64,000 nucleotides of DNA from Clostridiaceae bacterium BL-3 (lineage in GTDB: Bacteria; Bacillota; Clostridia; Clostridiales; Clostridiaceae), in assembly GCA_902809985.1 (NCBI GenBank), contig CADDXC010000001.1, positions 62,001 to 126,000 on the forward strand, given 5' to 3'. How positions within the stretch are numbered: position 1 is the stretch's first letter; each line of letters begins with the position of its first letter. The notes under the pieces are model-generated. The model did no database searches, was not told the DNA's origin, and saw only the letters and a program-made list of their open reading frames with translations. A program made the translations under genes and the position numbers. This document shows positions 36,021-61,101 of this stretch, one piece after another.

Positions 36021-38159
36021 ATGGATAAAAAAATTTTAACAGTATGCCCCTATTGTGGTGCAGGATGTAACCTTTATTTATATGTAAGAGATAATAAAAT
36101 AATTAAGGCGGAACCAGCTAATGGTAGGACGAATGATGGTTCACTGTGCCTAAAGGGATATTTTGGTTGGGACTTTTTGAATGATCCCAAGATTTTAACA
36201 GCTCGTTTAAATAAACCTATGATAAGAAAAAATAATAAGCTGGAAGAAGTGTCCTGGAAGGAAGCTATTGATTTTACGGCTTCAAAATTGTTGGACATAA
36301 AAGAAAAATATGGTCCCGATTCAATAATGGGCACAGGATGTGCCAGAGGTTCGGGAAATGAAGCAAACTATGTTATGCAAAAATTTATGAGAGCAGCAGT
36401 GGGAACCAATAATGTAGATCACTGTGCCAGAGTCTGACATGCTCCTTCTGTAGCCGGTCTGGCTCGTGTTTTAGGAAATGGTGCTATGTCAAATGGAATA
36501 CATGAAATAGATGATACTGATTTACTGCTTATTTTTGGTTACAATGGGGCGTCTTCACATCCTATAGTTGCCAAAAGGATAGTTAATGCAAAGCAGAAGG
36601 GTGCAAAAGTTATAGTGGTGGATCCACGTATAACTGAATCAGGAAGAATAGCTGATCTTTGGCTGCCTATAAAGAATGGAACTAATATGGCTCTTGTAAA
36701 TGGTTTTGCAAATGCACTTATAAATGAAAAATTATATGATGAAGAGTATGTTAAAGATCATACCAGCGGATTTAAAGAATACAGTGCAATAGTGGAAAAG
36801 TACACTCCTGAGTATGTAGAAAAAATCACCAATATAAATGCCAGGGATATAGTAAAAGCTATGGAAATGTATTCTAGTGCTAAAAATGCAATGATACTCT
36901 ATGGAATGGGAGTTTGTCAGTTTGCACAAGCTGTAGATGTGGTCAAGGGATTGGCATCACTGGCACTTTTGACTGGAAATTTTGGAAGGGCTAATGTGGG
37001 AATAGGGCCGGTTAGAGGTCAGAACAATGTTCAGGGCGCCTGTGACATGGGAGTACTTCCCAATGTATATCCTGGGTATCAGAGTGTAACTGATGATAAA
37101 ATCAAGAGTAAATTTGAAAAAGCCTGGAAGGTCAAGCTTTCAAATAAAATAGGGTGTCATTTGACAGAAGTTCCCCGCAGGACTCTTAAAGAAAATAAGT
37201 TAAAGGCGTATTATATAATGGGGGAGGATCCGGTTCAAAGTGATCCTGATTCCGAAGAGATGAGAAGGACATTGGAGAAATTGGAATTTGTCATAGTTCA
37301 GGATATTTTTATGAATAAAACCTGTCTTTATGCAGATGTGATTTTACCGGCTACTTCCTGGGGAGAGCATGAGGGTGTATTCACCTGTGCGGATAGAGGG
37401 TTTCAAAGGTTTAGAAAAGTAGTAGAACCTAAGGGAGATGTTAAGCCTGACTGGCAGATAATTTCCGAAATATCCTCTGCCATGGGGTATCCTATGCACT
37501 ATGATAATACGGAGGAAATATGGGATGAACTCAGGAATCTATGTCCTAATTTTAAAGGGGTAACCTACGAAAGACTGGATAAACTGGGAGGAATTCAATG
37601 GCCATGTCCTTCAGAAGATCATCCAGGTACATCTTATCTATATGAAGGCAATAAATTCAATACGTCAACAGGCAGGGGAAATCTTTTTGCTGCGGAATGG
37701 AGGCCTCCTGTAGAATCTGTAGATGAAGAATATCCACTGGTTCTCTCCACTGTAAGGGAAGCAGGGCATTATTCTGTTAGAACCATGACCGGTAATTGTA
37801 GGGCACTTCAGCAGCTGGCAGATGAACCTGGATATGTGCAGATTAATTCTGAGGATGCAGATAGATTTAAGATAAAAGATGAACAGATTATGAGAATAAG
37901 CTCCAGAAGAGGTTCTGTTTTAGCCAGGGCGCTGGTGACAGAGAGGGTAAACAGAGGTGCAGTTTATATGACGTATCAGTGGTGGATAGGTGCGTGTAAC
38001 GAGCTTACCTCTAATAATCTTGATCCTGTGTCGAAAACTCCAGAATTAAAATATTGTGCCGTTAAAATAGAGGCTATAGAAGATCAAATAGAAGCGGAAA
38101 AATATGTAAAAGAAGAATATGATAAAATAAAGAGAAAGATGGGAGCAAAAGTACAATAG
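36021..38159 (+). CDS. fdhA: Selenocysteine-containing formate dehydrogenase catalytic subunit
   Basis: One 712-residue gene read through an in-frame UGA at 36435-36437 (codon 139), where the context HCARV-U-HAPSVAGL is that of Sec-type FDHs. The N-terminal [4Fe-4S] motif uses C9, C12, C16 and C43; the rest is the Mo/W-bisMGD fold (GTGCARGSGNEANYV, GPVRGQNNVQGACDMG, and the C-terminal dinucleotide-binding domain). It interconverts CO2 and formate, the first step of the methyl branch of acetogenesis. In C. autoethanogenum this subunit works in complex with the NADP-dependent Hyt hydrogenase, whose genes lie downstream here. ATG 36021 is preferred to 36015 because GGGGG at 36009-36013 then has seven-base spacing. 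Confidence 0.95.
36435..36468 (+). promoter_or_regulatory. Bacterial SECIS element for Sec139 of fdhA
   Basis: Just after the UGA (36435-36437), AGCC (36452-36455) pairs with GGCT (36461-36464) around a GGTCT loop, the loop sequence also used by E. coli fdhF. A lower stem CATG/CGTG (36438-36441 with 36465-36468) encloses it. The loop begins 19 bases after the UGA, proper for SelB binding. Confidence 0.85.
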
Positions 38160-39879: not shown

Positions 39880-40188
39880 ATGGACAAGACATTTCAAATC
39901 AAGGTGAGCAAGTATGATGGGAAACACAGCAAAGTTGTGGATGAATTGGCCATATGTGAATATCCCCTAAATATATTTGTAAATGGAAGGCATCTAACTG
40001 TGCTTTTGTGTACACCGGAAAAACTTGAGGAATTGACTGTAGGATTTTTGATTTTTCATATAGTGATATCAAAATCTGCACCTACGTATCTTTCAATAAA
40101 ATTTGCTGAGGCCTTAAATGTCACCTTAGTAGGGTTTGTAAGGGAGAGGAGAATGAATGTATATACAAATCCCCAGCGAATAATATAA
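39880..40188 (+). pseudogene. fdhD: Internally deleted fdhD (formate dehydrogenase sulfurtransferase remnant)
   Basis: A 102-residue frame that joins the N-terminal part of FdhD (ELAICEYPLNIFVNGRHL, EELTVGFLIF) directly to its C-terminal part (SKSAPTYLSIKFAEALNVTL, VGFVRERRMNVYTNPQRI). Full FdhD is about 240-270 residues; the missing middle of some 150 residues contains the Cys-x-x-Cys loop that carries persulfide from IscS/NifS-type desulfurases to the FDH cofactor. The reading frame is kept and the ribosome-binding site (GGAGGGG) is intact, so a short protein may still be made, but it should not have sulfurtransferase activity. A second, whole fdhD elsewhere in the genome would be expected. 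Confidence 0.8.
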
Positions 40189-45979: not shown

Positions 45980-46028
45980 AAGTAAAATGTTAAAGTACAG
46001 TTTTGAACTGTACTTTAACATTTTACTT
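45980..46028. terminator. Strong hairpin terminator after hytE2
   Basis: Perfect 23-bp stem (45980-46002 with 46006-46028), three-base loop. It lies right behind the fdhA-hyt operon. The 3' arm is T-rich rather than followed by a pure T-run. Confidence 0.85.
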
Positions 46029-46177
46029 AGAAATAATCTTGAGTTTTTAGGTCTTTAAGTCTAGAATTATTAAAATGTTTTTCAAACGTATATTCATTGA
46101 CATTATACAGCAATTTTTATGCCAGCTGTAAAATGGCTGCAGATGAGGTAGGTTTTAAGTTTAATATCATAATGATA

Positions 46178-46235
46178 AAAAACAGTATCAATATGATATT
46201 ATAAAAAACATATTTATCATATTGATACTGTTTTT
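46178..46235. promoter_or_regulatory. Long inverted repeat upstream of second sigma-54 activator
   Basis: Perfect 21-base arms (46178-46198 and 46215-46235) with a 16-base loop, ending in a T-run on the plus strand. It could be a second terminator, but a strong one already precedes it, and its arms hold GTATCAATATG, the same 11-mer as in the inverted repeat beside the other sigma-54 activator (13627-13637). It lies 77 bp before the gene at 46312, so an activator-binding site is as likely. The rest of 45973-46311 holds the hytE2 terminator and AT-rich DNA. Confidence 0.5.
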
Positions 46236-46311
46236 ATTTTATTCAATCTTAAAATATGATATACTTTAAATAAATACTACACTTAAAATATTTAAAGGAG
46301 AGAATAAGACG

Positions 46312-47718
46312 GTGGAGAATTTCGATTTTATTCAAGAGGAAAGTAACATGTGCAGAATTGATATGGACAGTATATTAGAATACGATATATCCTCTTTTAT
46401 ACTTCAGGCAATTTTTGATTGCTGCTATGATGGACTCATAATTACAGATGAGAATCTTTTAATAAAAAAAGTTAATGTTACAGCTGTTAAAATATTGGGC
46501 ATAAAAGAAGAAGCTATATATACAACTTACCTGAATGAAATACTGAAGGATGATGTGTTAAAATCTGTGGTGCTTACGGGAGAAAGCAAATTTTCACAGG
46601 ATTGTAATTTTTATATAAATGGGAGTAGAATAAGGTGTGTTGTAAATTTGGTTCCTGTGAAATTACGGGGGAGAATAATAGGATTGGTGCTTGCCATTAG
46701 GGACACCAGAAAACTTCATAGAATGGTAAACAATGTAGTGGGATATAAGGCATCTTTTACCTTTGATGATGTAATTACAAGAAGCGAAAATGTCAAAGCC
46801 ATTATAAAGCTGGCTAAAAGAGCAGCCAAAACGAACTGCAATATACTTATAGAAGGCAAAAGCGGTACGGGAAAAGAGGTATTTGCACAATCCATTCATA
46901 ACTACAGCAGTAGAAATGGGGGACCCTTTGTGGCTGTAAATTGTGCAGCCATACCCAGAGAACTGGTGGAAAGTGAATTATTTGGATATGAAAAAGGAGC
47001 CTTTACTGGAGCATCAAGAGGAGGAAATCCTGGTAAATTTGAACTGGCAGATGGAGGAACTATATTTTTAGATGAAGTGGGTGAACTTCCCCTGGATATT
47101 CAATCCAAACTCTTGAGGGTTTTGGACAATCTCAAAATAGTGAGAGTGGGGGGGAATTATGAAAAGCCTATAGATGTAAGAGTAATTGCAGCTACAAACA
47201 GAGTACTTAAGGACGAAATAGCAAATAAAAATTTTAGAGGCGATCTGTATTACAGGCTTAATGTGATGAGCATTCACCTCTTACCTCTAAAGGACAGAAA
47301 AGAAGATATAGAACTTTTAGCACAGCACTTTGTAAATAGATTGAATATCAAAAACCCCTCTGAGCCCAAGTATATAGATTCTTCCTATGTGGAAAAATTA
47401 AATCAGCATGGTTTTGAAGGGAATATAAGGGAACTCAGGAATATAGTAGAGAGATCCTATTATCTTTGTGAAGGCAATATGATAACTTCAAGATATTTTA
47501 TGGAAAAAAGCACAAAAAGTGACATGAAAGCAGTTGATGATCCATCAAATAAAGTTTTACCTCTGGAAATTGTAGAGGAGAAGTGCATTAGAAATGCCCT
47601 TAAGTATTGCAGCGGTAATGCCATGAAGGCATCTGAATTATTGAAGATAGGTAAAGCTACTATATATAGAAAGATAAATAAGTACGGTATAGATTTGAAT
47701 TCATACAATAAAAAATGA
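46312..47718 (+). CDS. Sigma-54-dependent activator (PAS, AAA+, Fis-type HTH)
   Basis: A 468-residue enhancer-binding protein: PAS sensor (about 25-130; [21 protein letters not shown]), AAA+ with Walker [10 protein letters not shown], canonical GAFTGA loop, Walker [12 protein letters not shown], and a Fis-type HTH ([20 protein letters not shown]). The start is GTG with AAAGGAGAG about ten bases before; a downstream ATG at 46348 is possible. It sits between the hydrogenase operon and the propanediol regulators. I found no -24/-12 promoter next to it, so its target is not obvious. Confidence 0.9.
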
Positions 47719-47735
47719 TCTTACAAAATAAATTT

Positions 47736-47792
47736 TCCTGGAGTTCAGGTGAAGAAAACATTCTTTAGGGTAAACTCCACCTGAATTCAGGA
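47736..47792. terminator. Imperfect bidirectional hairpin between convergent genes
   Basis: Arms 47736-47751 and 47778-47792 (TCCTG-AGTTCAGGTG against CACCTGAATTCAGGA), about 14 pairs with one bulge and one wobble, 26-base loop. It lies between the converging sigma-54 activator and response-regulator genes. Confidence 0.6.
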
Positions 47793-47804
47793 ATCACTGG
47801 ATAA

Positions 47805-49361
47805 TTATCTTGCTATTTTTTTCCTGGCTTCTAAGGGAATTTTGTATTCGCAGGGCATTGACAGCTGGCATTTCTGACATAAAAAATTGGTACAGGATAT
47901 ATTTCCCTTATTGTATCTGCCAATAACGTGATGCGGGCAGATTTGGATGCAGCTTCCGCAGGAATTGCAGTAATCGTAAACTCCACTATAAGCCCTTTTG
48001 GTGGCTTTATAAGGTATACTTACAATTATACTTCCAAGCCTTCCTGCACAACCGCGTTTAGTTATGAGAGTTTTATTCAAACTGAGAGTTCCCAGTCCGG
48101 ATATAAATGCTATATGTTTTTCTGACCAATTGCTTTTATAGTTTTTCACTGTAAATCTTGGACTTATTGAGGGAATGACCGAAATTCCTCCCATTTCTCC
48201 TATGTTTTTGGATATAAATTTACAGAGCGTATTGACAAAGGACATATTTTCGATTTTTTCATAAGCCCACTTTAGTGAAGAAACAGAGTTTTTGTTTTTA
48301 AATAAGTTTCTAATAGCAGATGAAAAAGGCAGAAAATAGGATATAACTGATTTTGCTTCAGGCATCCACTCTTTAGGGGTTAAGTGTCTGGGATCTACCA
48401 CTGTACTGTCCTTTAATTTTAAAAATAATGGATCCCGGGCTTGAGCGACTCCTATTAATGGCGCATCAAAAATTCTTATATTATTTAATTCTGAAATTCT
48501 GTTATAGGGTGAAGTTAAAGTGAATTCATTTATCTGTTTTACCATATTCTCAATTTTGTATACATGTGATGCTTTTTCCTCTACATCATCTAAATTCATA
48601 TAAGTTGAATTGACGTGTATGCTTTTTTTGAAGGTTCTATATTTATTGGGAGACAGTCCTTCATATTTGGTAAAAACTTTGCTAAAGTATGCCGGATCTA
48701 TATATCCTACACTAAGAGCTATATTTCTTATACTCTTGTCTGTAGTAGTTAAAAGGCGTTTTGATTCTTTCAGACGGATTTTGGATAGATAATCTATAAA
48801 ATTTATACCTGTATTGTATTTAAAATATCTGCTAAAATACTGAGGACTTAGATGTACTTCTTCAGCAGCAGATTCCAAACTTATATTTTTATTAAAATTC
48901 TTATTTATAAAATCTATGGCAGTATGAATTATATTTTTATCAGAATCAATTTTATTGTTGTTTAGAGTTGTAAAGTTCTTATCTCTTTTTTTAAGTAAAA
49001 ATAATATTTTATTTATGGAATCCTTTACTTCTGAAGGTTTTGCCGGCTTTAAAATATAATCTTTTACTCCAAGCTTTATGGCATTTTGGGCAAAGTTGAA
49101 GTCATCATAAGCAGTCAGTATAATAGTTTTTACGTTTGGAAGAAACTTAGATATTTCCTCTTGGGCTTCAAGTCCATTTTTTTCAGGCATTTTTATGTCC
49201 ATTATAATTATGTGAGGGTTATATTTTTTGGCAAATAGTATAGCTTCACTTCCAGTCTTAGCATCTTCAACAATATCTAGATTTTTGAAGGATTTTCTTA
49301 ATACAAGTCTCATAGCTTGACGCTCTAATGTTTCGTCATCCGCAATTAGCAATCTATACAT
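47805..49361 (-). CDS. Response regulator: REC + AraC HTH + C-terminal QueG-like 2x[4Fe-4S] domain
   Basis: A 518-residue fusion. Residues 1-120 are a CheY-type receiver with phospho-acceptor D55 (IIIMDIKMPEKNG); about 145-250 an AraC/XylS DNA-binding domain (EEVHLSPQYFSRYFKYNTG, SVGYIDPAYFSKVFTKYEG); about 270-518 resemble the epoxyqueuosine reductase (QueG) fold with GLGTLSLNKTLITKRG and ferredoxin clusters C465/C468/C471/C475 and C490/C495/C498/C504. QueG uses cobalamin and [4Fe-4S] clusters; here the catalytic Asp region is not recognisable, so a sensory role for redox, oxygen or B12 is more likely than catalysis. Start ATG 49361 follows GGAGGTG; GTG 49373 is the alternative. It is in an operon with the PocR kinase and divergent from pduA. 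Confidence 0.85.
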   Translation of the reverse strand: MYRLLIADDETLERQAMRLVLRKSFKNLDIVEDAKTGSEAILFAKKYNPHIIIMDIKMPEKNGLEAQEEISKFLPNVKTIILTAYDDFNFAQNAIKLGVKDYILKPAKPSEVKDSINKILFLLKKRDKNFTTLNNNKIDSDKNIIHTAIDFINKNFNKNISLESAAEEVHLSPQYFSRYFKYNTGINFIDYLSKIRLKESKRLLTTTDKSIRNIALSVGYIDPAYFSKVFTKYEGLSPNKYRTFKKSIHVNSTYMNLDDVEEKASHVYKIENMVKQINEFTLTSPYNRISELNNIRIFDAPLIGVAQARDPLFLKLKDSTVVDPRHLTPKEWMPEAKSVISYFLPFSSAIRNLFKNKNSVSSLKWAYEKIENMSFVNTLCKFISKNIGEMGGISVIPSISPRFTVKNYKSNWSEKHIAFISGLGTLSLNKTLITKRGCAGRLGSIIVSIPYKATKRAYSGVYDYCNSCGSCIQICPHHVIGRYNKGNISCTNFLCQKCQLSMPCEYKIPLEARKKIAR

Positions 49362-49385
49362 TGATATAATCACCTCCGCTAAATT

Positions 49386-50606
49386 TTAATGTACTAGTGG
49401 AATTTTAATATAAACTGTTGTTCCCACATTAGGTGAGCTTTTAATGTCAATTCCGTATTGTGCTCCAAAATAGTATTTTATTCTATCCTGAACTATTTGG
49501 ATCCCTATACTGATATTTGAATCATCTCTACTTGAAGAATTCATTTTATCTTTCAGAGATCTTAATTTTGCAGCTTCTATTCCCACCCCATTATCTTGAA
49601 TTTTGAAAATTACATAGTTTCCCGCTACAGTTTCTGAATCTATATAAACTTTTCCAAATTCTTTTTTGGGTTCTATACCGTGTATGACGGCATTTTCTAC
49701 TATGGGCTGCAGGGTCATGGCGGGAATTTTACAATTCAACACATTGTCCGAGATATTTATTTTATAACTTAATTTATCTTTAAATCTTACAGATTGGATG
49801 TACAGATATTTTTTTATATTGTCTATTTCAATAGATATATTTACCATCTTATCAGAATTTCTTAAACTATATCTCAATATATCAGACAGTGCATATATGA
49901 GTTCTACAGTGTTGTTAGAACTTTCTAAGAGTGACATGCTGGCCATGGTATTCAATGTGTTAAATAGAAAGTGAGGGTTGATTTGAGATTGAATGGATTT
50001 TATTTGAATATCCCTGGCTAATTGCTGAAACTTCATTTTTTCCTTGGTTTCCTGTAACAGCTTAGAATGAGTGATGTTGGCAACTCCCATTTTGGCAATG
50101 AGATTTGCAAACATATACATAAAATCAGCTGAATTTTTTATCTTTTCGTAAGCTACTATATTTATTTCTTTCAGAGCAGTTTCTAACTTATCCAATGGCA
50201 GATACAATTCTTTAGAAATCTTTTTTAAGTTAATTGAATTTCTTGTATCATTTTCCTTTATGGATACTTGTCCACAAAGCATTGATCCAATGTGAACATT
50301 ATTTACAATTATAGGGGCAGAGAAATCTGTAAGTCCCGTATGGCAGCGATAGATAATGGGCTTTTTTAATTTAGAAGATTTTATTCCTCCCATGGCATCG
50401 CAATTTATGCATCTCCTGTAGCCTTCCTTTGAGGTTCGGATGAGGTTGCAAAATTTTGAAAAATTACTGGGCTTAATAAGGGGAACGCCATTTCTATTTA
50501 CAGTTATGGTAGATAGATTTGTCAATTTAGAATACTTGTCTTGTATGTCCTGCAGAGAACCTACATCTATAAGTTTATCCAATGTATAGTGCTCTAAATC
50601 ATCCAT
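49386..50606 (-). CDS. PocR-domain LytS-type sensor histidine kinase
   Basis: A 406-residue kinase: an N-terminal PocR domain (about 5-175; LTNLSTITVNRNGVPL, CNLIRTSKEGYRRCINCDA, YRCHTGLTDFSAPI), then a His_kinase domain with SQINPHFLFNTLNTMASM and a HATPase (VENAVIHGIEP, DNGVGIEAAKL). PocR is the regulator of the Salmonella pdu/cob genes that senses propanediol, so this kinase probably senses propanediol or glycerol directly in the cytoplasm; I see no membrane segments. Conserved Cys residues may bind metal. GAGGTG ribosome-binding site. The response regulator follows after 24 bp. Confidence 0.92.
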   Translation of the reverse strand: MDDLEHYTLDKLIDVGSLQDIQDKYSKLTNLSTITVNRNGVPLIKPSNFSKFCNLIRTSKEGYRRCINCDAMGGIKSSKLKKPIIYRCHTGLTDFSAPIIVNNVHIGSMLCGQVSIKENDTRNSINLKKISKELYLPLDKLETALKEINIVAYEKIKNSADFMYMFANLIAKMGVANITHSKLLQETKEKMKFQQLARDIQIKSIQSQINPHFLFNTLNTMASMSLLESSNNTVELIYALSDILRYSLRNSDKMVNISIEIDNIKKYLYIQSVRFKDKLSYKINISDNVLNCKIPAMTLQPIVENAVIHGIEPKKEFGKVYIDSETVAGNYVIFKIQDNGVGIEAAKLRSLKDKMNSSSRDDSNISIGIQIVQDRIKYYFGAQYGIDIKSSPNVGTTVYIKIPLVH

Positions 50607-50766
50607 ATAAACACCTCATAATGTAAAACAGATTTTTTATAAATAAATTCAATATATAAATTCATATTATCATATCTTTAGACAATTGAAAATATTCAAA
50701 TCATACAGAAGCTGTATTTATATATAATTATAACCTGAAATATAAATTTATCAAATCCAAATGTAA

Positions 50767-50801
50767 AAAAAGTACATAAATAGATATAAAAAGTGCAAAT
50801 T
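50767..50801 (+). promoter_or_regulatory. Direct repeat, candidate AraC-type operator before pduA
   Basis: AAAAAGTACATAAAT (50767-50781) and AAAAAGTGCAAATT (50788-50801) are in direct orientation 21 bp apart, two helical turns, as expected for an AraC-family dimer site. They lie in the 304-bp divergent region between the PocR kinase gene and pduA. I could not fix a -35/-10 with confidence, and there is no -24/-12 element or B12 riboswitch in this gap. Confidence 0.4.
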
Positions 50802-50910
50802 AAATTAGTTAATATATGTATTAAATTAATCAATAATTTGCAAAATAAGTATGCGAAAGTAATGTAAAATTAATTTTAAGAATTAATATTATTTATATGG
50901 AGGTGTTCCT

Positions 50911-51192
50911 ATGGGACAGGAAGCATTGGGAATGATAGAAACAAGAGGATTGGTAGGAGCAATAGAAGCTGCCGATTCAATGGTAAAAGCAGCAAACGTA
51001 GTTCTTATAGGCTATGAAAAAATTGGTTCAGGGCTTGTAACTGTTATGGTAAGAGGTGATGTAGGCGCAGTGAAAGCAGCTACAGATGCCGGTGCAGCTT
51101 CAGCTAAGAGAGTAGGAGAGGTTGTATCAATACATGTTATTCCAAGACCTCATACAGACGTGGAAAAAATATTACCTAAAATTTCAGAATAA
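50911..51192 (+). CDS. pduA: Microcompartment shell hexamer protein PduA/PduJ-type
   Basis: A 93-residue single BMC domain ([20 protein letters not shown], then [31 protein letters not shown] and SIHVIPRPH). It builds the flat hexagonal facets of the propanediol microcompartment and lets diol through its pore. GGAGGTG ribosome-binding site. First gene of the pdu operon, 304 bp from the divergent regulators. Confidence 0.95.
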
Positions 51193-51211
51193 TTGATTAG
51201 GGGTAGATATG

Positions 51212-52099
51212 ATGGATAATGAGTTAATAGAGAAGGTTTTAGATGAAATAAGAAAAAAGGTGGATTTGAAAAATTTTGATCAAGAACAGCTGAATAAAAT
51301 TATAAAATCCTCATCTGAAAATTTAATGCAAAGGCAAAATAATGATATTCGAAAAGAAAATAAAATAGATAATGAGAGGGAGGTAGATTCAATGAGTGCA
51401 CCATCACCAATAACTGAGTATGTTGGAACATCAAACTATGGGGATACAGTTGGACTGGTAATTGCAAATGTTGACAGTATGTTACATGAAAAAATGGGTA
51501 TTGACAAGAAATATCGTTCTATAGGAATCATAAGTGACAGAACAGGGGCAGGTCCACAGATAATGGCTGCAGATGAGGCTGTAAAAGCTACTAATACGGA
51601 AGTTGTAAGTATCGAACTTCCAAGGGATACTAAAGGCGGTGCAGGACATGGTGCCTTGATCATATTGGCTTCAGAGGATGTATCGGATTCGAGAAGGGCA
51701 GTGGAAGTTGCACTTAGGGATACGAACAGAACCTTTGGAGATGTTTATGGATTTGATGCAGGCCATGTGGAACTTCACTACACTGCCAGGGCAAGCTATG
51801 CATTGAACAAGGCCTTTGGTGCTCCAATAGGAAAATCTTTTGGCATAATAGTAGGGGCTCCGGCAGGATTGGGAGTGGTAATGGCAGATAAAGCGCTCAA
51901 AACTGCAAACGTTGACCTGGTAAGTTATGCAAGTCCTGGAAATGGAGGGACTTCCTATACAAATGAGGTTATCATAACTATAACTGGAGATTCAGGTGCT
52001 GTAAGACAATCGGTAGTTGCCGCTAGAGAAGTGGGGTTATCTATAGCAAGATCAATGGGACAGAATCCTGTGTCTACTACTGGTAAACCTTATATTTAA
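51212..52099 (+). CDS. pduB: Tandem-BMC shell trimer protein PduB
   Basis: A 295-residue protein with two fused BMC domains (about 75-285; EYVGTSNYGDTVGLVIANVD, GFDAGHVELHYTARASYALN, GIIVGAPAGLGVVMADKALK). The N-terminal 60 residues form an extension starting with the helix MDNELIEKVLDEIRKK that resembles the encapsulation peptides of PduD, PduE and PduP. ATG 51212 is seven bases after AGGGGT (51209 also possible). A second start (PduB') is provided at 51392. Confidence 0.94.
   Translation: MDNELIEKVLDEIRKKVDLKNFDQEQLNKIIKSSSENLMQRQNNDIRKENKIDNEREVDSMSAPSPITEYVGTSNYGDTVGLVIANVDSMLHEKMGIDKKYRSIGIISDRTGAGPQIMAADEAVKATNTEVVSIELPRDTKGGAGHGALIILASEDVSDSRRAVEVALRDTNRTFGDVYGFDAGHVELHYTARASYALNKAFGAPIGKSFGIIVGAPAGLGVVMADKALKTANVDLVSYASPGNGGTSYTNEVIITITGDSGAVRQSVVAAREVGLSIARSMGQNPVSTTGKPYI
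51378..51394 (+). promoter_or_regulatory. Internal ribosome-binding site and start for PduB'
   Basis: GGGAGGT (51378-51384) seven bases before an in-frame ATG at 51392 (MSAPSPITEY). As in Salmonella, where PduB and PduB' are both made, this would give a 235-residue shell protein without the N-terminal extension. Confidence 0.7.
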
Positions 52100-52141
52100 A
52101 AATTTAAAGGGTTTAATATGTTTTAAGGAGGGTTCTAGTTA

Positions 52142-53806
52142 ATGAAAAGATCCAAGAGATTTGAAGTATTAGAGAAAAGACCGATTCATCAAGATGGGTA
52201 TGTTAAAGAATGGCCGGAAGTTGGGCTTATAGCAATAGGAAGTCCGAGTGATCCAGCTCCAAGTATTAAATTGGAGAATGGAAAAGTAGTCGAAATGGAT
52301 GGAAAAAAGAGGGAAGAGTTTGATTTTATAGACACTTTTTTAGCAGATCATTCAATAAATCTAGAGAATACCGAAAAAGCCATGGCACTGGATTCAACTG
52401 ATATTGCAAGAATGCTGGTTGATATAAATGTTTCGAGAGATGAAATAATAAAGATAACAACTTCACTTACTGCGGCAAAATTGGTGGAAGTAGTTGATAA
52501 ATTAAATGTAGTTGAAATGATGATGGCTCTTCAGAAGATGAGGGCAAGGAAAACACCTGCCAACCAGGCACATGTTACCAATGTGCGGGATAATCCGGTA
52601 CAGATTGCAGCAGATGCTGCTGAATCAGGTATCAGGGGCTTTGCGGAAATGGAAACTACCGTAGGTATAGTGAGATATGCACCATTCAATGCAATTGGAA
52701 TTCTGGTTGGAGCACAGACAGGAAGACCTGGAGTGTTGACACAGTGCTCGTTGGAGGAAGCTACAGAGCTTAGATTGGGTATGCTTGGATATACGGCTTA
52801 TGCAGAAACAATATCCGTATACGGTACGGAAAATGTATTTGTAGATGGTGATGATACTCCATATTCAAAAGCTTTTCTTGCATCGGCTTATGCTTCAAGG
52901 GGACTTAAAATGAGGTTTACTTCTGGAACCGGTTCTGAAGTTCAGATGGGTTATGCAGAAGGAAAATCCATGCTCTATCTGGAAGCAAGATGCATAATGA
53001 TAACAAAGGGTGCCGGAGTTCAAGGCCTTCAGAATGGTTCAGTCAGCTGTATAGGTGTTCCAGCAGCAGTACCAGGAGGAATAAGGGCAGTATTGGGTGA
53101 AAATCTTATAACTGAAATGCTGGATCTTGAAGTTGCTTCAAGTAATGACCAGACTTTCACACATTCAGATATTAGAAAAACTGCAAGGACAATGATGCAG
53201 TTCTTACCAGGAACTGACTTTATATGTTCCGGTTATAGTTCAACTCCAAACTACGACAACATGTTTGCAGGTTCCAACTGGGATGCGGAGGATTATGATG
53301 ATTGGATAGTGCTTCAGAGAGACCTTAAAGTTGATGGAGGACTTCAGCCGGTAAAAGAAGAAGATGTAGTGGCAGCTAGGAATAAGGCAGCTAGAGCAAT
53401 GCAGGCACTGTTTAAAGAGCTTGGGCTCCCTGCTATAACCGATGAGGAAGTTGAAGCTGCAACCTATGCCCATGGAAGCAAGGATATGCCAGCTAGAAAT
53501 GTAGTGGAAGATCTGAAGGCAGCTCAGGAATTATTGTCCCGAGGAGTAACTGGATTGGATATAGTAAAGGGACTTTATAAGGGCGGTTTTAAAGATGTAG
53601 CTGAAAATGTCCTCAATATATTGAGACAGAGGATAGCGGGAGATTATCTGCATGCATCTTCAATATTTGATAATAAATTCAATGTTATAAGTGCTGTCAA
53701 TGATAAAAATGACTATATGGGACCTGGAACCGGTTATAGAGTAGAGGGAGAAAGATGGAATAAATTGAAAGACATAACATTTGCTCTAGATCCTGAAAAA
53801 ATGTAA
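52142..53806 (+). CDS. pduC: B12-dependent diol/glycerol dehydratase large subunit
   Basis: A 554-residue alpha subunit, start [20 protein letters not shown], with the barrel blocks [54 protein letters not shown] and the conserved [16 protein letters not shown]. With PduD and PduE it turns 1,2-propanediol into propionaldehyde (or glycerol into 3-hydroxypropionaldehyde) using adenosylcobalamin. The sequence does not let me tell diol from glycerol preference; the surrounding pdu genes favour propanediol. Confidence 0.96.
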
Positions 53807-53825
53807 GAAAGAGAGGGATTGGAAT

Positions 53826-54500
53826 ATGGTAAATTCAGTATCTAACGAGGAATTAATAGAGTCTATAGTGCAGAAAGTTTTAGAGCAATTGCAATCTGAT
53901 GGATCTCATAACAGTACTTCTGCAGGCGGCGATGCTCCAGCCTCCAAAGTGGGAAACATGAAAATAGAGGAAATAGGTCCTGCACAACGGGGTAAGAAGA
54001 GTGATGAAGTAGTAGTGGGATTGGCGCCGGCTTTTGGATTATACCAAACTGAAACTATAATAGGAATACCTCACAATGAAGTCCTGAGAGAAATTCTTGC
54101 AGGCATAGAAGAAGAGGGGATTTCCTACAGGCTTATAAGGGTTTTAAATACCTCTGATGTGGCTTTTATAGCTCATGCTGCAGCTAAGTTAAGTGGCTCA
54201 GGTGTTGGCATAGGAATACAGTCAAAGGGCACCACGGTTATTCATCAAAAAGATTTGGATCCATTAAATAACCTGGAGTTGTTTTCACAGGCACCGTTGA
54301 TTGACAAGAAGACTTTTAGGGCAATAGGCAAAAATGCAGCCAGATATGCTAAAGGTGAGTCTCCAGATCCAGTACCAGTTGTAAATGATCAGATGGCACG
54401 ACCGAAATATCAGGCAAAAGCTGCAATACTTCACATAAAGGAAACTGAGCATGTGGATAGAAGTGCTAAACCTGTCGAACTAAAAGTAAGTTTTGAATAG
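53826..54500 (+). CDS. pduD: Diol dehydratase medium subunit
   Basis: A 224-residue beta subunit. The first 20 residues ([17 protein letters not shown]) form an amphipathic helix, the encapsulation peptide that targets the enzyme into the shell, followed by a Gly/Ser-rich linker. The core shows [20 protein letters not shown] and [19 protein letters not shown], conserved in PduD. GAGAGGGA ribosome-binding site. Confidence 0.95.
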
Positions 54501-54511
54501 GGGTGAAAATT

Positions 54512-55039
54512 ATGGCTAATAATGATTTGATAGAACAGATAGTTAATGAAGTTTTAAAAAATATAGGTTCTGATGGAGCTGGAAACAAAACGGCTCAAAA
54601 CAATTCATCTTCTTGTTCTACCGGGAATACTTTAAATGCAGAAAATGATTATCCGTTGAGCAAGAAAAGACCTGATCTTGTAAAGACCAAAACAGGTAAA
54701 AACATAAATGATATAAATATAGAGAATGTTTTAAATGGAAAGATAACTCCAGACGATATAAAGATAACTCCAGAAGTGCTTCTGTATCAAGCTCAGATAG
54801 CGGAATCAGTTGGAAGAAAACAGTTCGCACAAAATCTTAAAAGAGCAGCTGAACTCACAAAAGTTCCAGATGCCAGGGTTCTTGAAATATATGGAGCAAT
54901 GAGACCTCATAGATCGACAAAACAGGAACTTTTGGATATAGCTAAGGAACTTGAAAATGACTACGGTGCCAAGATAAATGCTTCACTTGTGAGAGAAGCA
55001 GCTGAAGTTTATGAAAAGAGAAATATGTTGAGAGCTTAG
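54512..55039 (+). CDS. pduE: Diol dehydratase small subunit
   Basis: A 175-residue gamma subunit with a second targeting-like helix (NNDLIEQIVNEVLKNI) and low-complexity linker before the conserved core (TPEVLLYQAQIAESVGRKQF, YGAMRPHRSTKQELLDIA). GGGGTG before 54512 fixes the start; GTG 54503 would lie within that site. Confidence 0.94.
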   Translation: MANNDLIEQIVNEVLKNIGSDGAGNKTAQNNSSSCSTGNTLNAENDYPLSKKRPDLVKTKTGKNINDINIENVLNGKITPDDIKITPEVLLYQAQIAESVGRKQFAQNLKRAAELTKVPDARVLEIYGAMRPHRSTKQELLDIAKELENDYGAKINASLVREAAEVYEKRNMLRA

Positions 55040-55051
55040 GCGGGTGATATG

Positions 55052-56890
55052 ATGAAATTTGTAGCAGGAGTTGATATAGGAAATTCCACTACTGAAGTTG
55101 CAATCGCGGATGTGGAAGACAAATTAGAGTTTAAAACAAGTAGTATAGGCAGGACTACAGGAATTAAAGGGACCCTGGATAATGTGGCGGGAATAATGAG
55201 AGCTCTGGAAGATGCTTGTCAAAATATACATATAAAGATAGAAAATTTAGATGTCATATGTATAAATGAAGCAACTCCGGTTATTGGAGATGTAGCTATG
55301 GAGACTATAACCGAAACGATCATTACAGAGTCTACCATGATAGGGCATAATCCGGATACCCCTGGAGGTATGGGAATAGGAGTTGGAAAAACCATATATT
55401 TAGATGAACTGAAAAACATGTCAGCAAATGAGCCTGTAATATGTGTAATTCCTAGAAAAGTTGATTTTGAAACTGCTGCAAATAGATTGAATGAGGCCTT
55501 TGACAATAATATTGATATCACTGCTGCCATAGTACAAGGTGATGATGGGGTCATAATAAACAATAGACTGAAAAAGCATATTCCTATTGTAGATGAAGTA
55601 TCTTATATAGATAAAGTTCCTATGGGAATGTTGGCAGCAGTAGAGGTTGCATCTCTTGGAAGGACTATAAAGGTGCTGTCAAATCCCTATGGACTGGCTA
55701 CAGTTTTTAAACTTTCGCCAGAGGAAACCAAACATGTTATTCCAATAGCAAGGGCCCTGATTGGAAATAGATCCGCCGTTGTAATAAGGACTCCTGAAGG
55801 AGATGTGAAAGAGAGAGTCATACCTGCCGGAAAATTGATACTTATGGGAGAAAAACAAAAAGAGCAGATTCCAATAGAAAATGGTTCAGAAACGATAATG
55901 AATGAATTGGAAAAATTATGGCCTATTAAAGATGTAACAGGTGAATCAGGAACCAATGTAGGCGGAATGTTGGAAAGAGTAAGACAGGTAATGAGCGAGC
56001 TTACAAGTCAGAGTATAGACAATGTGAAAATTCAGGATATTTTAGCTGTGGATACCTTTATACCTCAAAAAGTTCAAGGGGGAGTGGCCGGTGAATTCTC
56101 CCTTGAAAATGCGGTGGCACTGGCAGCCATGGTAAAAACCAGCAGGTTACCTATGGAGAGTATTGCTAAAAAATTGGAAAATGAAACCAAGGTAAAAGTT
56201 ATAATAGGCGGAGTTGAGGCAAATGTAGCAGTTAGGGGAGCGCTTACTACTCCGGGTACGGATAAACCATTGGTAATACTCGATATAGGAGGAGGTTCTA
56301 CAGATTCAGCCTATATAAGTGGAGAGGATAATATAAGATCCATTCATCATGCAGGAGCAGGTCAGATGGTTACAATGCTGATAAATTCAGAGTTGGGATT
56401 AGATGACGTGAGTTTAGCAGAGGATATAAAGAGATATCCTCTGGCTAAAGTTGAAAGTCTTTTTAATATAAGATATGAAGATGGAAATGTATGTTTTTAT
56501 CAAAATCAGCTGGATTCTTCTCTATTTGCGAGAAATGTAATTGTAAAAAGTGAAAATGATCTGATCCCAATTCCGACTAAGCATTCTATAGAGAAGATAA
56601 GAATGGTCAGGAGAGAATCCAAAGAAAAAGTATTTGTAACAAATATTAAAAGAGCTCTAAAGGATATAGCACCTGATCATAATATAAGATCTGTGGACTT
56701 TGTGGTGCTTGTGGGAGGATCTGCACTGGATTTTGAAATACCTGAAATGATATCCGATGAATTGTCCCATTATGGAGTAATATGCGGCAGCGGCAATATA
56801 CGGGGCCTTATGGGACCTAGAAATGCAGTAGCTACAGGTCTGGTAATTGCCTATTACCAGAATATACATTCTGATAAATCCAGAGGATAA
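55052..56890 (+). CDS. pduG: Diol dehydratase reactivase large subunit
   Basis: A 612-residue actin/Hsp70-like ATPase (DdrA type). Nucleotide-binding blocks GVDIGNSTTEVAIAD at the start and VILDIGGGSTDSAYISG in the second half. With PduH it swaps damaged cobalamin out of PduCDE. GGTGAT upstream fits the ATG at 55052 (55049 is adjacent). It follows pduE by 12 bp. Confidence 0.95.
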   Translation: MKFVAGVDIGNSTTEVAIADVEDKLEFKTSSIGRTTGIKGTLDNVAGIMRALEDACQNIHIKIENLDVICINEATPVIGDVAMETITETIITESTMIGHNPDTPGGMGIGVGKTIYLDELKNMSANEPVICVIPRKVDFETAANRLNEAFDNNIDITAAIVQGDDGVIINNRLKKHIPIVDEVSYIDKVPMGMLAAVEVASLGRTIKVLSNPYGLATVFKLSPEETKHVIPIARALIGNRSAVVIRTPEGDVKERVIPAGKLILMGEKQKEQIPIENGSETIMNELEKLWPIKDVTGESGTNVGGMLERVRQVMSELTSQSIDNVKIQDILAVDTFIPQKVQGGVAGEFSLENAVALAAMVKTSRLPMESIAKKLENETKVKVIIGGVEANVAVRGALTTPGTDKPLVILDIGGGSTDSAYISGEDNIRSIHHAGAGQMVTMLINSELGLDDVSLAEDIKRYPLAKVESLFNIRYEDGNVCFYQNQLDSSLFARNVIVKSENDLIPIPTKHSIEKIRMVRRESKEKVFVTNIKRALKDIAPDHNIRSVDFVVLVGGSALDFEIPEMISDELSHYGVICGSGNIRGLMGPRNAVATGLVIAYYQNIHSDKSRG

Positions 56891-56905
56891 AAGAGGTAGT
56901 TTGAT

Positions 56906-57349
56906 ATGATTGATAATGTAAGTGTAAATAGACCTTGTATAAATGTATGCCTGGATAATCCTGCAGAATCTCTTTTAAAAGAGATTCTCGCCGGGTTAGA
57001 AGAAGAGGGCATTCCCTATGAATTGAAAAATATGAATTTTACCCAGGATGAAATAATTAAAATTGCTTATGAGGTTTCTGAGGAATCTAGAATGGGAATA
57101 GCCATTGCATTGAAAAATGATAGAGTAGTACTCCATTATAGTAAGCTTAAAGAAAATCATCCTCTTATAGATATGAGGCTTGATTATTATGAAAAACGTA
57201 AAGCCAGGATAATTGGCTGTAATGCTGCCAGACTTTATAAAGTAATGCCTTTTAAATCCTTTGAAGATACAGATGAAAATCAATTGGGTCAGCAGGTAAA
57301 ATCAGCGGTTATTTCTGCTTTGAAGGACTTTAATTTGAATATTTCCTAA
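56906..57349 (+). CDS. pduH: Diol dehydratase reactivase small subunit
   Basis: A 147-residue DdrB-type protein resembling the PduD fold (LLKEILAGLEEEGIPYELK, MGIAIALKNDRVVLHYSKL, IIGCNAARLYKVMPF). It dissociates from PduG to take its place beside PduD during cofactor exchange. AAGAGGTAG ribosome-binding site. Confidence 0.92.
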   Translation: MIDNVSVNRPCINVCLDNPAESLLKEILAGLEEEGIPYELKNMNFTQDEIIKIAYEVSEESRMGIAIALKNDRVVLHYSKLKENHPLIDMRLDYYEKRKARIIGCNAARLYKVMPFKSFEDTDENQLGQQVKSAVISALKDFNLNIS

Positions 57350-57392
57350 AATTTTATGTAGTTACTCCATATGTAACAAGGGAGGGATTTTT

Positions 57393-58064
57393 ATGAATGG
57401 AGAGGCCCTTGGTATTATTGAAACTATTGGAATGGCTGCGGCAATAGAAGCTGCAGATAGTTGTGTAAAATCAGCAAATGTAACTCTTATAGGTTACGAA
57501 CTGACCAGAGGGAGAGGCCTTGTAACAATTAAGATAAAGGGAGATGTGGGAGCGGTTAAAGCTGCAATCAACGCAGCAAAGGTAAGTGCAGGTAAGGTCA
57601 ACGGTGTCTATTCTACTCTTGTTATACCAAGGCCTGCTGAAAATTTAGATAGTATTATAGAATCAAAAGAAACAGTGGGGCTTGAAAAAAAACGTGAAAA
57701 AGTTGAGGATGAGGATACAGATTCTCAAGTAAAAATAGGACAGAATGAAAAATTGGAAAATTCTAATTCACAGAAACCTCATTTGAGTGAAAAAAATGGA
57801 GATATCCAGAAAGAAGCTAATCTGAGTGAAGAAATTGAAGAGGAAGGTTCCACTGACGTAGTTGAGGAAACTGTACCTGAAAGGAAGCAGACTGTTAAAG
57901 TTCAAAATGATGATTCCTCCAAGGAAAAGAAAAATGAAGAAGATAATAAGGAAGTATGCAATATATGCCATGATCCTCAATGCCCTAGGAGAAAGGGACA
58001 GCCGAGAAATCTGTGTATTCACTATAAAAATCATGGAAAGGCGATAGAGAATGATGGAAACTAA
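57393..58064 (+). CDS. pduK: Shell protein PduK-type (BMC domain with Cys-containing tail)
   Basis: A 223-residue protein: a BMC domain (about 1-90; GEALGIIETIGMAAAIEAAD, SANVTLIGYELTRGRGLVTI), a long acidic, Lys/Glu-rich low-complexity linker (about 95-190), and a short Cys-rich end CNICHDPQCPRRKGQPRNLC that may bind a metal or Fe-S cluster. This is the PduK arrangement. GGGAGGGA ribosome-binding site; its end overlaps the next gene by 14 bp. Confidence 0.9.
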   Translation: MNGEALGIIETIGMAAAIEAADSCVKSANVTLIGYELTRGRGLVTIKIKGDVGAVKAAINAAKVSAGKVNGVYSTLVIPRPAENLDSIIESKETVGLEKKREKVEDEDTDSQVKIGQNEKLENSNSQKPHLSEKNGDIQKEANLSEEIEEEGSTDVVEETVPERKQTVKVQNDDSSKEKKNEEDNKEVCNICHDPQCPRRKGQPRNLCIHYKNHGKAIENDGN

Positions 58065-58887
58065 TATGTTAAAGCAGGCCAATTCATTTATTATGGAAAT
58101 GGAGAAATCATTTAAAAGTCCTAATAAGATTCATGTAGATCAAAATTTAAAAGTTGGGGTGGATTTAGGGACTTCTAATATTGTGATAACAGTTCTGGAC
58201 GAAAATAATAGACCTGTTACTGGGGAACTGTATTCCGCCAATGTGGTAAGGGACGGTATAGTGGTTGAATATTTGAATGCTGTGAATATACTTAGAAAAT
58301 TAAAGGGAAAGCTAGAGGTTGTTTTAGATAGAAAGCTGGAATATGCTGCTACAGCTATACCACCGGGAATAAGTTCCGGAAATACGAAGGTTATTGCAAA
58401 TGTAGTTGAGGCCGCTGATTTTATAGTTACCAATATAATAGATGAACCCACTGCAGCTTCTAATGTTTTGAAGATAAGAGATGGTGCAGTAGTGGATGTA
58501 GGAGGAGGAACTACTGGAATATCAGTATTAAAAGATGGCAAAGTGGTACATTCAGCAGATGAACCTACAGGAGGACATCATTTGAGCTTAGTTGTATCCG
58601 GAGCACTTCATATGGATTATGAAGAGGCAGAAAAATATAAGATAAACGAGGAAAATTATGATGAGGTATTTGCTCTAGTCAGACCGGTAATTGAAAAAAT
58701 GGCGGATATAGTATTGAAAAATATTGAAGGATATGATGTGAGCACTATATACCTGGTGGGGGGGACTTGTTGTTTAAAAAATATAGAGAGTATATTTAAA
58801 AAATATACTGGTATAGAAACTATTAAGCCATATAATCCTCTTCTTGTAACGCCTATGGGAATAGCTATGAATGATATCAAGAAGTAA
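58051..58887 (+). CDS. eutJ: EutJ-family actin-like chaperone
   Basis: A 278-residue Hsp70/actin-fold protein of the EutJ family: LKVGVDLGTSNIVITVLD (phosphate 1), the conserved IIDEPTAASNVL, VVDVGGGTTGISVL (phosphate 2) and STIYLVGGTCCLKNIE (adenosine). EutJ is normally part of ethanolamine loci and thought to help fold or load microcompartment enzymes. It overlaps pduK by 14 bp; MLKQA at 58066 is a possible alternative start. Confidence 0.88.
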   Translation: MMETNMLKQANSFIMEMEKSFKSPNKIHVDQNLKVGVDLGTSNIVITVLDENNRPVTGELYSANVVRDGIVVEYLNAVNILRKLKGKLEVVLDRKLEYAATAIPPGISSGNTKVIANVVEAADFIVTNIIDEPTAASNVLKIRDGAVVDVGGGTTGISVLKDGKVVHSADEPTGGHHLSLVVSGALHMDYEEAEKYKINEENYDEVFALVRPVIEKMADIVLKNIEGYDVSTIYLVGGTCCLKNIESIFKKYTGIETIKPYNPLLVTPMGIAMNDIKK

Positions 58888-58922
58888 GTATAGCTGTCAG
58901 CTTATATAAGTGGGGTGAATAA

Positions 58923-59729
58923 ATGGATATAAAAGATTTGCTAAGGCCTATGGTTGCCCAAATTATGAATATGTTAAATAGGAGAATATTGTTGTTTATA
59001 TCAGGAGGAGCGGTAAATATAAAGGATATATTTGAGATGCTGGCCTCTATGAGTATATTGCAGTACGATATAGTAATGACAGAATCTGCAAAAAGGGTAA
59101 TACCACAAAAATATGTGGATGCTCTCAATGGAAAACTGATAGAATGTAAAGAAGAACTGACTAATGCAGTGAGAGAAGATGATCTGGTTTTGATACCGGT
59201 GATGACTAGAAATACACTGGCAAAATGTGCAGTTGGCATAGAGGATAATTTGGTTACCCTGGGAATAGCCGAAGCTCTTATGATGGATAGGGAAATCATT
59301 GCTGTATCAGACAGTTTTGATCCTCAGAATTCTAAGAATGTAGGTTTAGGATTAAGTAGAAATGAAGCATATAATAGATTTATATTGAGCTACAGAGATA
59401 ATTTGTCCAGCTTGGGAGTTGATTTTATTGAGGGAGATCAGCTTGGTGGAACTTTAAAGAGCAAATTTCTCCTTTTAAATGATTCGTCTGCAGGTAGTCA
59501 GGAAAAGAAGACTGCATCCAATACGGAGGTTAAGGATAAAAATATAACTGACCATAATATACCAAAACCCTGTGGAAAAAATAAAATATTATCCGATGTT
59601 GTAACTGCGAAAGATATTTTAGCTAATATGGATAATTCAAGGGAAATTTATATAAAGCAAGGGTCATTGATAACTCCTCTGGCGAAAGATTATGTGGACA
59701 ATAATAATATAGTTATAAAATATTATTGA
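58923..59729 (+). CDS. Microcompartment-associated flavoprotein (PF02441-like)
   Basis: A 268-residue protein whose first 180 residues look like the flavoprotein domain of the Dfp/UbiX type (ILLFISGGAVNIKDIFEML, MTESAKRVIP, DDLVLIPVMTRNTLAKCAVG, GIAEALMMDREIIAV). A polar linker and a C-terminal segment (DVVTAKDILANMDNSREIYI) follow. Genes like this occur in some Firmicutes microcompartment loci, but not in the Salmonella pdu operon; a flavin-dependent role in cofactor recycling is inference. GGGGTGAATAA ribosome-binding site. Confidence 0.75.
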   Translation: MDIKDLLRPMVAQIMNMLNRRILLFISGGAVNIKDIFEMLASMSILQYDIVMTESAKRVIPQKYVDALNGKLIECKEELTNAVREDDLVLIPVMTRNTLAKCAVGIEDNLVTLGIAEALMMDREIIAVSDSFDPQNSKNVGLGLSRNEAYNRFILSYRDNLSSLGVDFIEGDQLGGTLKSKFLLLNDSSAGSQEKKTASNTEVKDKNITDHNIPKPCGKNKILSDVVTAKDILANMDNSREIYIKQGSLITPLAKDYVDNNNIVIKYY

Positions 59730-59759
59730 TCACCTGAATTTTAAGAAAGAGGGATGAGC

Positions 59760-60035
59760 ATGTATTTAGCTAAAGTAGTTGGAAATGTTGTTTCTACTCA
59801 AAAAAATGAAAAATTGGTTGGAAGTAAACTGCTTATTATAAAAAAAATAGATGAAAATGAAAATATAATAGGAGAACCTGTGGTGGCTATAGATACAGTA
59901 GGAGCTGGAATTAATGAAATTGTCATTGTGGTTACGGGAAGTGGAGCTAGGAATGCCAGCGAGTCGGGAAGTGATATACCGGCAGATGCGTCTATCGTCG
60001 GGATTGTAGATGAGGTGGAGTGGAACAAACACTGA
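59760..60035 (+). CDS. pduN: Shell pentamer (vertex) protein PduN
   Basis: A 91-residue EutN/CcmL-type protein (MYLAKVVGNVVSTQKNEKLV, then GSGARNASESGSDIPADASIVGIVDEVEW) that closes the icosahedral vertices. AGAGGG (59748-59753) at six bases from the 59760 ATG supports this start, two codons inside the longer frame. Confidence 0.94.
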   Translation: MYLAKVVGNVVSTQKNEKLVGSKLLIIKKIDENENIIGEPVVAIDTVGAGINEIVIVVTGSGARNASESGSDIPADASIVGIVDEVEWNKH

Positions 60036-60078
60036 TGTATTTGCCTTTTTTAAAATGGCATTTTAGGTGGTGATTGGT

Positions 60079-61101
60079 ATGAAGATATACACTAAAACTG
60101 GTGACAAGGGAAGTACCAGTTTGGTGGGTGGAGAGAGAACAAACAAATATGATCTTAGAGTGTGGGCCTACGGGAGTATAGATGAGGCAAATTCATCTAT
60201 TGGTCTTGCTAGAGCTTGCATGGAAGATGAGAATTTAAAGGGCAAACTTTTAAAAATACAAAAAACTCTCTTTGAGGTTGCAGCAGAATTGGCATCGCTG
60301 GGAACTAAAAATTATAGGTCCAGGATAGAAGAGGAGGATGTTGTATTTTTAGAAGATACTATAGATGAACTGGATAGAATGCGTCCTGTACAAAATGGAT
60401 TTATAGTACCAGGTGGTACTGTGGAATCTGCTCATCTTGATGTGGCTAGAACAGATGTGAGAAGGGCAGAAAGATATATATCAGAACTCAGAAATCATTA
60501 TGAAGTAAATGACAGCTTGCAAAAATATGTAAATAGGTTATCTGATGCTATATATGCTGTAGCTAGGTATTTCGACTATAAGGATATTTTAAAAAAGACA
60601 GAAGAGAAGCTAACTAGCTTAAACAGTGGCGAGAAAATCGACCGCAGAGGCAATCCCCAAAAAAACTTGCTGACAAATACAGTACTTAACAGGGAGACTG
60701 CTGAATATATAGCCGGGAAATGCATAGAAAAATCTTATGATATAGGTGTACCAATGGTAATATGTATTGTAGATTTTGACGGTAATGTGATACTGCTGGA
60801 GCGAATGGATAACTCTCTTTTAATAAGCTTGAAAGTTGCTTTTAAAAAAGCATATACGGCTGCAGCTCTTAAAAGCCCTACAGGAGAACTATATAAGGCA
60901 TTACTGCCAGGAGGAGAGTTCTATGGGCTTAATAACGATGAAAACATAATAACTTTTGCAGGGGGATTTCCTTTAAAAATAGATGGGCATATTGTAGGAG
61001 CTATAGGAGTAAGCGGGGGTACAGTAGATGAAGATACCAGCGTTTCAAAATATGGAGTAGAAGTTTTTGAGGAGGTAGTAAAGTATGGAATTAAAAGGTA
61101 A
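60079..61101 (+). CDS. pduO: Cob(I)alamin adenosyltransferase PduO with C-terminal HbpS/GlcG domain
   Basis: A 340-residue two-domain PduO. Residues 1-185 are the ATP:cob(I)alamin adenosyltransferase (KIYTKTGDKGSTSLVGGER, RTDVRRAERYISEL), making the coenzyme needed by PduCDE. Residues about 200-340 are the DUF336 (GlcG/HbpS) haem- or cobalamin-binding-type domain. ATG 60079 chosen over GTG 60067, which lies in the GGTGGTG site. It overlaps pduP by 17 bp. Confidence 0.94.
   Translation: MKIYTKTGDKGSTSLVGGERTNKYDLRVWAYGSIDEANSSIGLARACMEDENLKGKLLKIQKTLFEVAAELASLGTKNYRSRIEEEDVVFLEDTIDELDRMRPVQNGFIVPGGTVESAHLDVARTDVRRAERYISELRNHYEVNDSLQKYVNRLSDAIYAVARYFDYKDILKKTEEKLTSLNSGEKIDRRGNPQKNLLTNTVLNRETAEYIAGKCIEKSYDIGVPMVICIVDFDGNVILLERMDNSLLISLKVAFKKAYTAAALKSPTGELYKALLPGGEFYGLNNDENIITFAGGFPLKIDGHIVGAIGVSGGTVDEDTSVSKYGVEVFEEVVKYGIKR

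Follow-up and report, generated by a model that had tools for sequence, protein, structure and literature searches.

The locus described here raises the question of why a transcriptional regulator should carry at its C-terminus a module that resembles the cobalamin enzyme QueG. We analyzed 64,000 nucleotides of Clostridiaceae bacterium BL-3 (contig CADDXC010000001.1, positions 62,001 to 126,000; this whole stretch is referred to as the window), in which a 518-residue response regulator stands next to an operon for a B12-dependent propanediol (pdu) microcompartment. The regulator is a real, rare and new form of the PDU1D two-component regulator. Our preferred explanation, offered tentatively and with somewhat less than even confidence, is that a PDU1D-type PocR-kinase response regulator, in one small clade of Clostridium, captured a QueG-like protein, which became its C-terminal corrinoid or redox input domain.

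The open reading frame (ORF) of the regulator occupies exactly 47805-49361 on the minus strand, and the plus strand there is full of stops. It starts with ATG at 49361, behind a GGAGGTG ribosome site. Pfam detected a receiver domain (REC) in residues 5-116 (49014-49349, minus strand; PF00072, E 1.4e-23) with the phospho-acceptor D55, and an AraC-type helix-turn-helix (HTH_18) in residues 166-242 (48636-48866, minus strand; PF12833, E 8.9e-21). Both domains had been named in a preliminary description of the window. The C-terminal module of about 250 residues (~266-518) consists of a predicted nitroreductase-type cobalamin-binding fold (residues ~266-460; 47982-48566, minus strand) and a ferredoxin-like tail (residues 461-518; 47808-47981, minus strand). 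In the tail Pfam found only Fer4 (residues 462-480), and its scan of the regulator matched no QueG model. D55 and the tail cysteines 465, 468, 471, 475, 490, 495, 498 and 504 lie exactly where they had been placed; there are further cysteines at 380 and 438.

We found the full fusion in three genomes: that of the window (G000), the metagenome-assembled genome of uncultured Clostridium UMB00080 (G007, CAIFEX010000016.1) and C. luticellarii DSM 29923 (G009, NZ_PVXP01000027.1). The orthologues in the two other species are intact (529 and 518 residues). A frameshift, the danger that the preliminary description had pointed out, or an assembly artefact was rejected, as the fusion is open in three genomes. 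The wider search for this architecture proposed there confirmed that it is rare, as it appeared in 3 of the genomes searched. Matches to the module or its family occurred in 61 of 98 relatives (E <= 0.001, the weak matches including ordinary QueG), in 45 of 391 class genomes (E <= 1e-15) and in 97 of 398 phylum genomes (E <= 1e-30), the last reflecting a widespread stand-alone QueG-like family; these samples overlap, some genomes being in more than one. In all three samples, strong matches (E <= 1e-20) longer than 400 residues came only from the three genomes named, and we saw no other fusion. The next longest phylum frames (394, 393 and 377 residues; 335, 328 and 370 from the first start codon) were read by eye and rejected, having no REC or HTH. 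In a search of contigs, an ORF was found in 76 of the best 80 of 590 confirmed stretches, and two of the 76 loci carry a fusion, namely those of UMB00080 and C. luticellarii. No paper that appeared to describe such a fusion was found in open-licence PubMed Central (PMC).

The fusions form one group with 100/100 support in both the regulator tree (19 rows) and the module tree (81 rows), and in the latter the stem branch leading to them is long (0.80 changes per site). Their nearest stand-alone relative is from Clostridium sp. OS1-26 (49%). Judged from the trees, one capture of a stand-alone QueG-like protein followed by rapid change is the simplest reading. The stand-alone proteins have 253-310 residues and no Pfam or NCBIfam model of their own (for example L060-L137); they are 34-49% identical to the module and are its closest relatives among the best 80 of 590 stretches. 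They share the invariant pattern SNWSERH..GLG..LIT..G.AGR and, unlike the fusions, stand alone and keep the catalytic-side residues and the full proximal cluster loop. Among 403 ORFs around them, the largest recurrent groups, named by eye, were ABC-ATPase-like (14 loci) and LysR-like (6 loci). We thus see no conserved neighbourhood for the family. In a separate set read by eye (L040-L053), one direct neighbour matched the corrinoid protein of the window (L047, 801 residues, 35%), and one member (L042) adjoins genes which by eye, with no model run, resemble acetyl-CoA and corrinoid metabolism. The stand-alone homologue in the window's own genome (G000:C1:809772-810583; L040 7764-8596) is broken into two ORFs that overlap in different frames; in UMB00080 it is one ORF. 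In Acetobacterium fimetarium a 371-residue ORF (L137 16189-17304) joins the iron-sulfur end of a QueG-like module to a calcineurin-like phosphoesterase domain.

Residues 251-518 matched NCBIfam QueG (TIGR00276, E 6.3e-8) with 32 bits, below the cut-off of 200 bits, and reductive dehalogenase (TIGR02486, E 1.3e-5) with 25.2 bits, below the cut-off of 160 bits. All 71 members of the module family alignment matched NCBIfam QueG at E <= 0.01. Comparison by hhalign with eight clostridial QueG sequences gave 99.2% (E 1.7e-19); three of the eight were checked, and these pass the QueG cut-off. In the PDB the family profile reached QueG 5d08 at E 2.1e-11 over positions 61-251; two polyferredoxin-type chains outscored it through repeated Fer4 matches. 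PHROGs gave no match. The AlphaFold model of the module predicted a QueG-like fold matching QueG, RdhA and CblC, that is, the nitroreductase-type cobalamin-binding fold of class III cobalamin modules. The full-length model was weak (pTM 0.47) and shows only a disordered linker (251-266) and an unsure tail. Thus the structural comparison with QueG suggested earlier came out in favor of a QueG-like fold, and the REC/AraC/QueG-like design in three parts was borne out by Pfam, NCBIfam and the predicted fold.

To judge from its residues, the module is not a QueG and is probably catalytically retired. The Asp-Tyr-His of QueG aligns by hhalign with S374-F375-V376 and the catalytic Asp with S400, the latter placement being less sure because it adjoins an alignment gap. 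The C-terminal HEAT/tRNA domain of QueG is absent, and the protein ends at the ferredoxin region. The module was rejected as the host's own QueG, a separate one being encoded elsewhere in the genome (L005, 246.5 bits). When compared with 68 stand-alone proteins, all fusions have lost, among others, N354, P361, R369, G372, D400, R415 (to Lys), F426 and the PRYG loop. They have kept N287, D310, P397, SNWSExH (410-416), GLGT, LIT, GxAGRxGS and R456, and in the tail the first four cysteines, C495 and C504. The motif SNWSExH..GLGTxxL..LITxxGxAGRxGS...R (residues 410-456; 47994-48134, minus strand), presumably the core of the cofactor site, is thus retained in all three. We read this pattern of loss and retention as a possible exaptation of an enzyme as a sensor, with a decaying passenger as a real alternative.

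Two [4Fe-4S] clusters with eight cysteine ligands are a trait of QueG and RdhA, not of CblC. In S. thermophilus QueG, according to PMC4646009, the distal cluster is bound by Cys 184, 187, 190 and 243 and the B12-proximal cluster by Cys 194, 210, 236 and 239. By analogy, the ligand sets expected in the regulator are C465/C468/C471/C504 (distal) and C475/C490/C495/C498 (next to B12). The preliminary description had seen two cysteine quartets; all eight cysteines are present, but two consecutive quartets are not the grouping to be expected, as the QueG clusters are cross-wired. All three fusions keep the four cysteines that correspond to the distal ligands of QueG. The regulators of the window and of C. 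luticellarii have eight candidate ligand cysteines and that of UMB00080 six, with the proximal loop shortened in all three: the gap between C490 and C495 is 4 residues, while it is 16-18 in 68/68 stand-alone proteins.

The presumed partner, a PocR-domain histidine kinase of 406 residues, lies directly upstream (49386-50606, minus strand; PF10114, E 9.7e-50; PF06580, E 7.2e-25; PF02518, E 4.7e-11). The pdu operon follows on the plus strand (50911-63884; NCBIfam, with BMC domain and flavoprotein matches). It encodes shell proteins, PduB, the diol dehydratase PduCDE, the reactivase PduG, the adenosyltransferase PduO, an aldehyde dehydrogenase and a PduS/RnfC-like protein. PduB, PduCDE and PduG exceeded the NCBIfam cut-off, and synteny was the same in UMB00080; the small PduH-like protein had no NCBIfam match at 1e-20. 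Both the kinase partner and the B12-dependent locus had been anticipated from the sequence.

Residues 1-247 found matches in 43 of 206 family genomes (E <= 1e-45), and apart from the three fusions every orthologous frame listed has at most 291 residues. None of the 16 sister loci that we read has the module. Eight are beside pduABCDE (G031, G534, G539, G536, G535, G002, G037 and G046; the G535 regulator contains one in-frame stop). Five are beside pduA/B-type shell genes with PduCDE not in the stretch, three of these having a Pfam-confirmed glycyl-radical enzyme. The remaining three lie elsewhere. PduC occurs in 7 of 13 genus members, three of which carry the fusion, and C. luticellarii has in addition an unfused 265-residue paralogue at a glycyl-radical locus.

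Several observations were made beside these genes. In C. luticellarii the intergenic sequence at one contig edge (L039 1-320) ends about 75 bp before pduA, while on another contig unrelated sequence, ABC-transporter-like by eye (L206 1429-3310), reaches the ribosome site of pduA; this is either a rearrangement or an assembly break. PduC of the window (52142-53806) and of C. luticellarii (L206 4521-6185) are 98% identical and the regulators only 77-78%, hinting at exchange of the pdu operon. A formate dehydrogenase alpha gene (36015-38159, plus strand) has an in-frame TGA at codon 141 (...HCARV-U-HAPSV...), at which a plain ORF list splits it in two, and is a probable selenoprotein gene. FdhD (39880-40188, plus strand) has 102 residues compared with 262 in UMB00080; it matches its family in two separate stretches, the second at the family's far end, and its middle portion seems to be missing.

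Between the kinase and pduA, 121-161 bp ahead of the latter, a 15-mer (TGTAAAAAAAGTACA-like) occurs twice with a spacing of exactly 21 bp. The candidate operator half-sites are TGTAAAAAAAGTACA (50762-50776, plus strand; 149 bp before pduA) and GATATAAAAAGTGCA (50783-50797, plus strand), a direct repeat with a 21-bp period. We scanned 12 regions: those of the window and UMB00080, the eight unfused pdu loci, and two of the five shell loci without pduC (L178, L179). The spacing of 21 was best or tied-best in 10/10 pdu regions, where 0-5 of 300 dinucleotide shuffles did as well, and not best in L178 and L179, where 75 and 154 of 300 did; the 12 regions are not independent, because they are homologous and the window itself supplied the motif. 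The pair looks like a shared putative operator, kept with and without the module. As to RNA control, Rfam had no match in the window, and a relaxed search of 46000-64000 returned three weak non-cobalamin matches only. The genome has 8 cobalamin riboswitches; none was found in 17 fused and unfused sister stretches, each covering only part of the operon (15 of the 16 sister loci, L175 being left out, together with UMB00080 and, from C. luticellarii, L039 without the pdu contig L206).

We propose that the PocR kinase would phosphorylate D55 upon propanediol, as known families suggest, and that the phosphorylated regulator would bind the two 21-bp-spaced repeats, as their conservation suggests, and activate the operon from pduA onwards. 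The module would no longer be an enzyme and would bind a corrinoid base-off like QueG and CblC, perhaps with one [4Fe-4S] cluster, and its occupancy or redox state would help or hinder the HTH. The operon would then be turned on only if substrate is present together with usable corrinoid (or a low potential). Fold, conservation and locus make a corrinoid or redox input by the module plausible, and we regard the sensor idea as the best of several. The stricter form, in which a retired class III (QueG/RdhA-type) cobalamin module is a protein-based corrinoid or redox input, so that substrate (through the PocR kinase) and cofactor (through the module) converge on one protein, is possible but rather doubtful.

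A number of results weigh against this proposal. The picture of an intact redox B12 enzyme is wrong, as the QueG catalytic motifs are absent and 12-14 residues of the proximal-cluster loop are deleted in all three fusions. In UMB00080 Tyr replaces two proximal cysteines, the equivalents of C490 and C498. With its loop shortened and, in UMB00080, these substitutions, the proximal cluster is damaged, which could mean that B12 chemistry or binding has been lost; the distal one could form in all three fusions. Since eight PduCDE-linked orthologous regulators lack the module, B12-dependent control of pdu can in general do without it; as no cobalamin riboswitch turned up either in the searched stretches of sister loci without the module, B12 gating itself is not generally required. 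The B12 synthesis gene CbiJ is present in 11/12 genomes, fused or not, and the exception (G037) has an unfused regulator, so B12 auxotrophy as a reason for the fusion is unsupported. The three fusions are one evolutionary event, and their tie to a B12 locus can therefore be counted only once. The kinase-regulator pair of the C. luticellarii draft is at a contig edge, with the pdu operon on another contig. The corrinoid protein of the window gave by blastp 1 match in 78 stand-alone loci (1.27 Mb), compared with none in 63 control loci (0.41 Mb), which gives no ground for claiming an enrichment; B12-linked genes are scarce around the stand-alone proteins.

In another explanation, unlikely although the strongest competitor, only the distal [4Fe-4S] cluster (C465/C468/C471/C504) works and reports redox state or O2/NO, and the nitroreductase-like half is a scaffold. 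It agrees with the intact distal set in all three fusions beside a B12-proximal set broken in one, and the hydrogenase-like and selenoprotein neighbours would fit an anaerobic life style. However, the strongest conservation of the module is found in the nitroreductase-like motif (residues 405-455; 98/88/86% among the fusions), not in the iron-sulfur tail (62/62/59%), which is also among the least confident parts of both structure models.

The fast divergence of this tail, the long stem branch, the loss of N354 and G372 (both invariant in 68/68 stand-alone proteins) and the close relatives that manage without a module would all suit a once-fused domain that is decaying and adds only bulk or stability. 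The module half is also less conserved than the HTH (residues 276-460, 82/75/69%, compared with 85/90/82%; REC, 88-91%), which tells against our proposal as well. We consider such a passenger quite improbable, as the frame has stayed open in three species, the conservation of motif 405-455 is close to that of the HTH, and dN/dS for residues 276-460 is 0.06-0.16 among the fusions (approximate values, since pS is 0.5-0.7 and synonymous sites are near saturation). Least probable is a bifunctional protein whose module retains a corrinoid chemistry, for instance the reduction of cobalamin for PduO, or deals with another ligand, the fusion only coordinating its level with the operon. The fold is common to the corrinoid proteins QueG, RdhA and CblC, and the operon has a gene for a cob(I)alamin-type adenosyltransferase; on the other hand, the QueG Asp-Tyr-His and Asp residues and the conserved catalytic-side residues of the stand-alone family are lost, the proximal cluster is damaged and the tRNA domain is lacking.

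EutR is a one-component regulator that is not known to have a QueG-like module, and the B12 domain of CarH is of the methionine-synthase type, unrelated to this module. CarH-type photoreceptors are alike in being transcription factors with a B12-binding domain. PDU1D loci with a PocR-domain histidine kinase two-component system are described in PMC4207490; in the window, as there, such a kinase and a response regulator point away from pduAB beside the PduCDE genes of a microcompartment, whereas the orthologous regulators listed in our search end after the HTH. PMC5821096 describes EutR as an AraC-family activator of the eut microcompartment that needs both substrate and adenosylcobalamin, and EutX/EutV as achieving the same gating through RNA. 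The dual gating of EutR, likewise an AraC-type regulator of a B12-dependent microcompartment, is that proposed here, but in the window a separate kinase would sense the substrate, and sensing of B12 is only proposed. QueG combines a nitroreductase-type fold that binds cobalamin with a two-cluster ferredoxin region behind it (PMC4646009). The module has the same predicted fold and a ferredoxin-like tail; it differs in its low score, its missing motifs, HEAT domain and loop, and its fusion to REC-HTH. The open-licence PMC literature searched gave no example of a transcription factor with a QueG/RdhA-type B12 domain.

In summary, the three closely related fused regulators, the unfused orthologues, which share the putative operator, and the unfused paralogue within one genome (glycyl-radical locus) form a ready comparison set. 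The fusion also points to a widespread stand-alone QueG-like family without its own model. Should the module prove to sense corrinoid or redox state, the regulator would be a transcription factor built on the QueG/reductive-dehalogenase/CblC fold, and would represent a third way, besides EutR and the riboswitch RNA EutX, to couple B12 supply to microcompartment expression.
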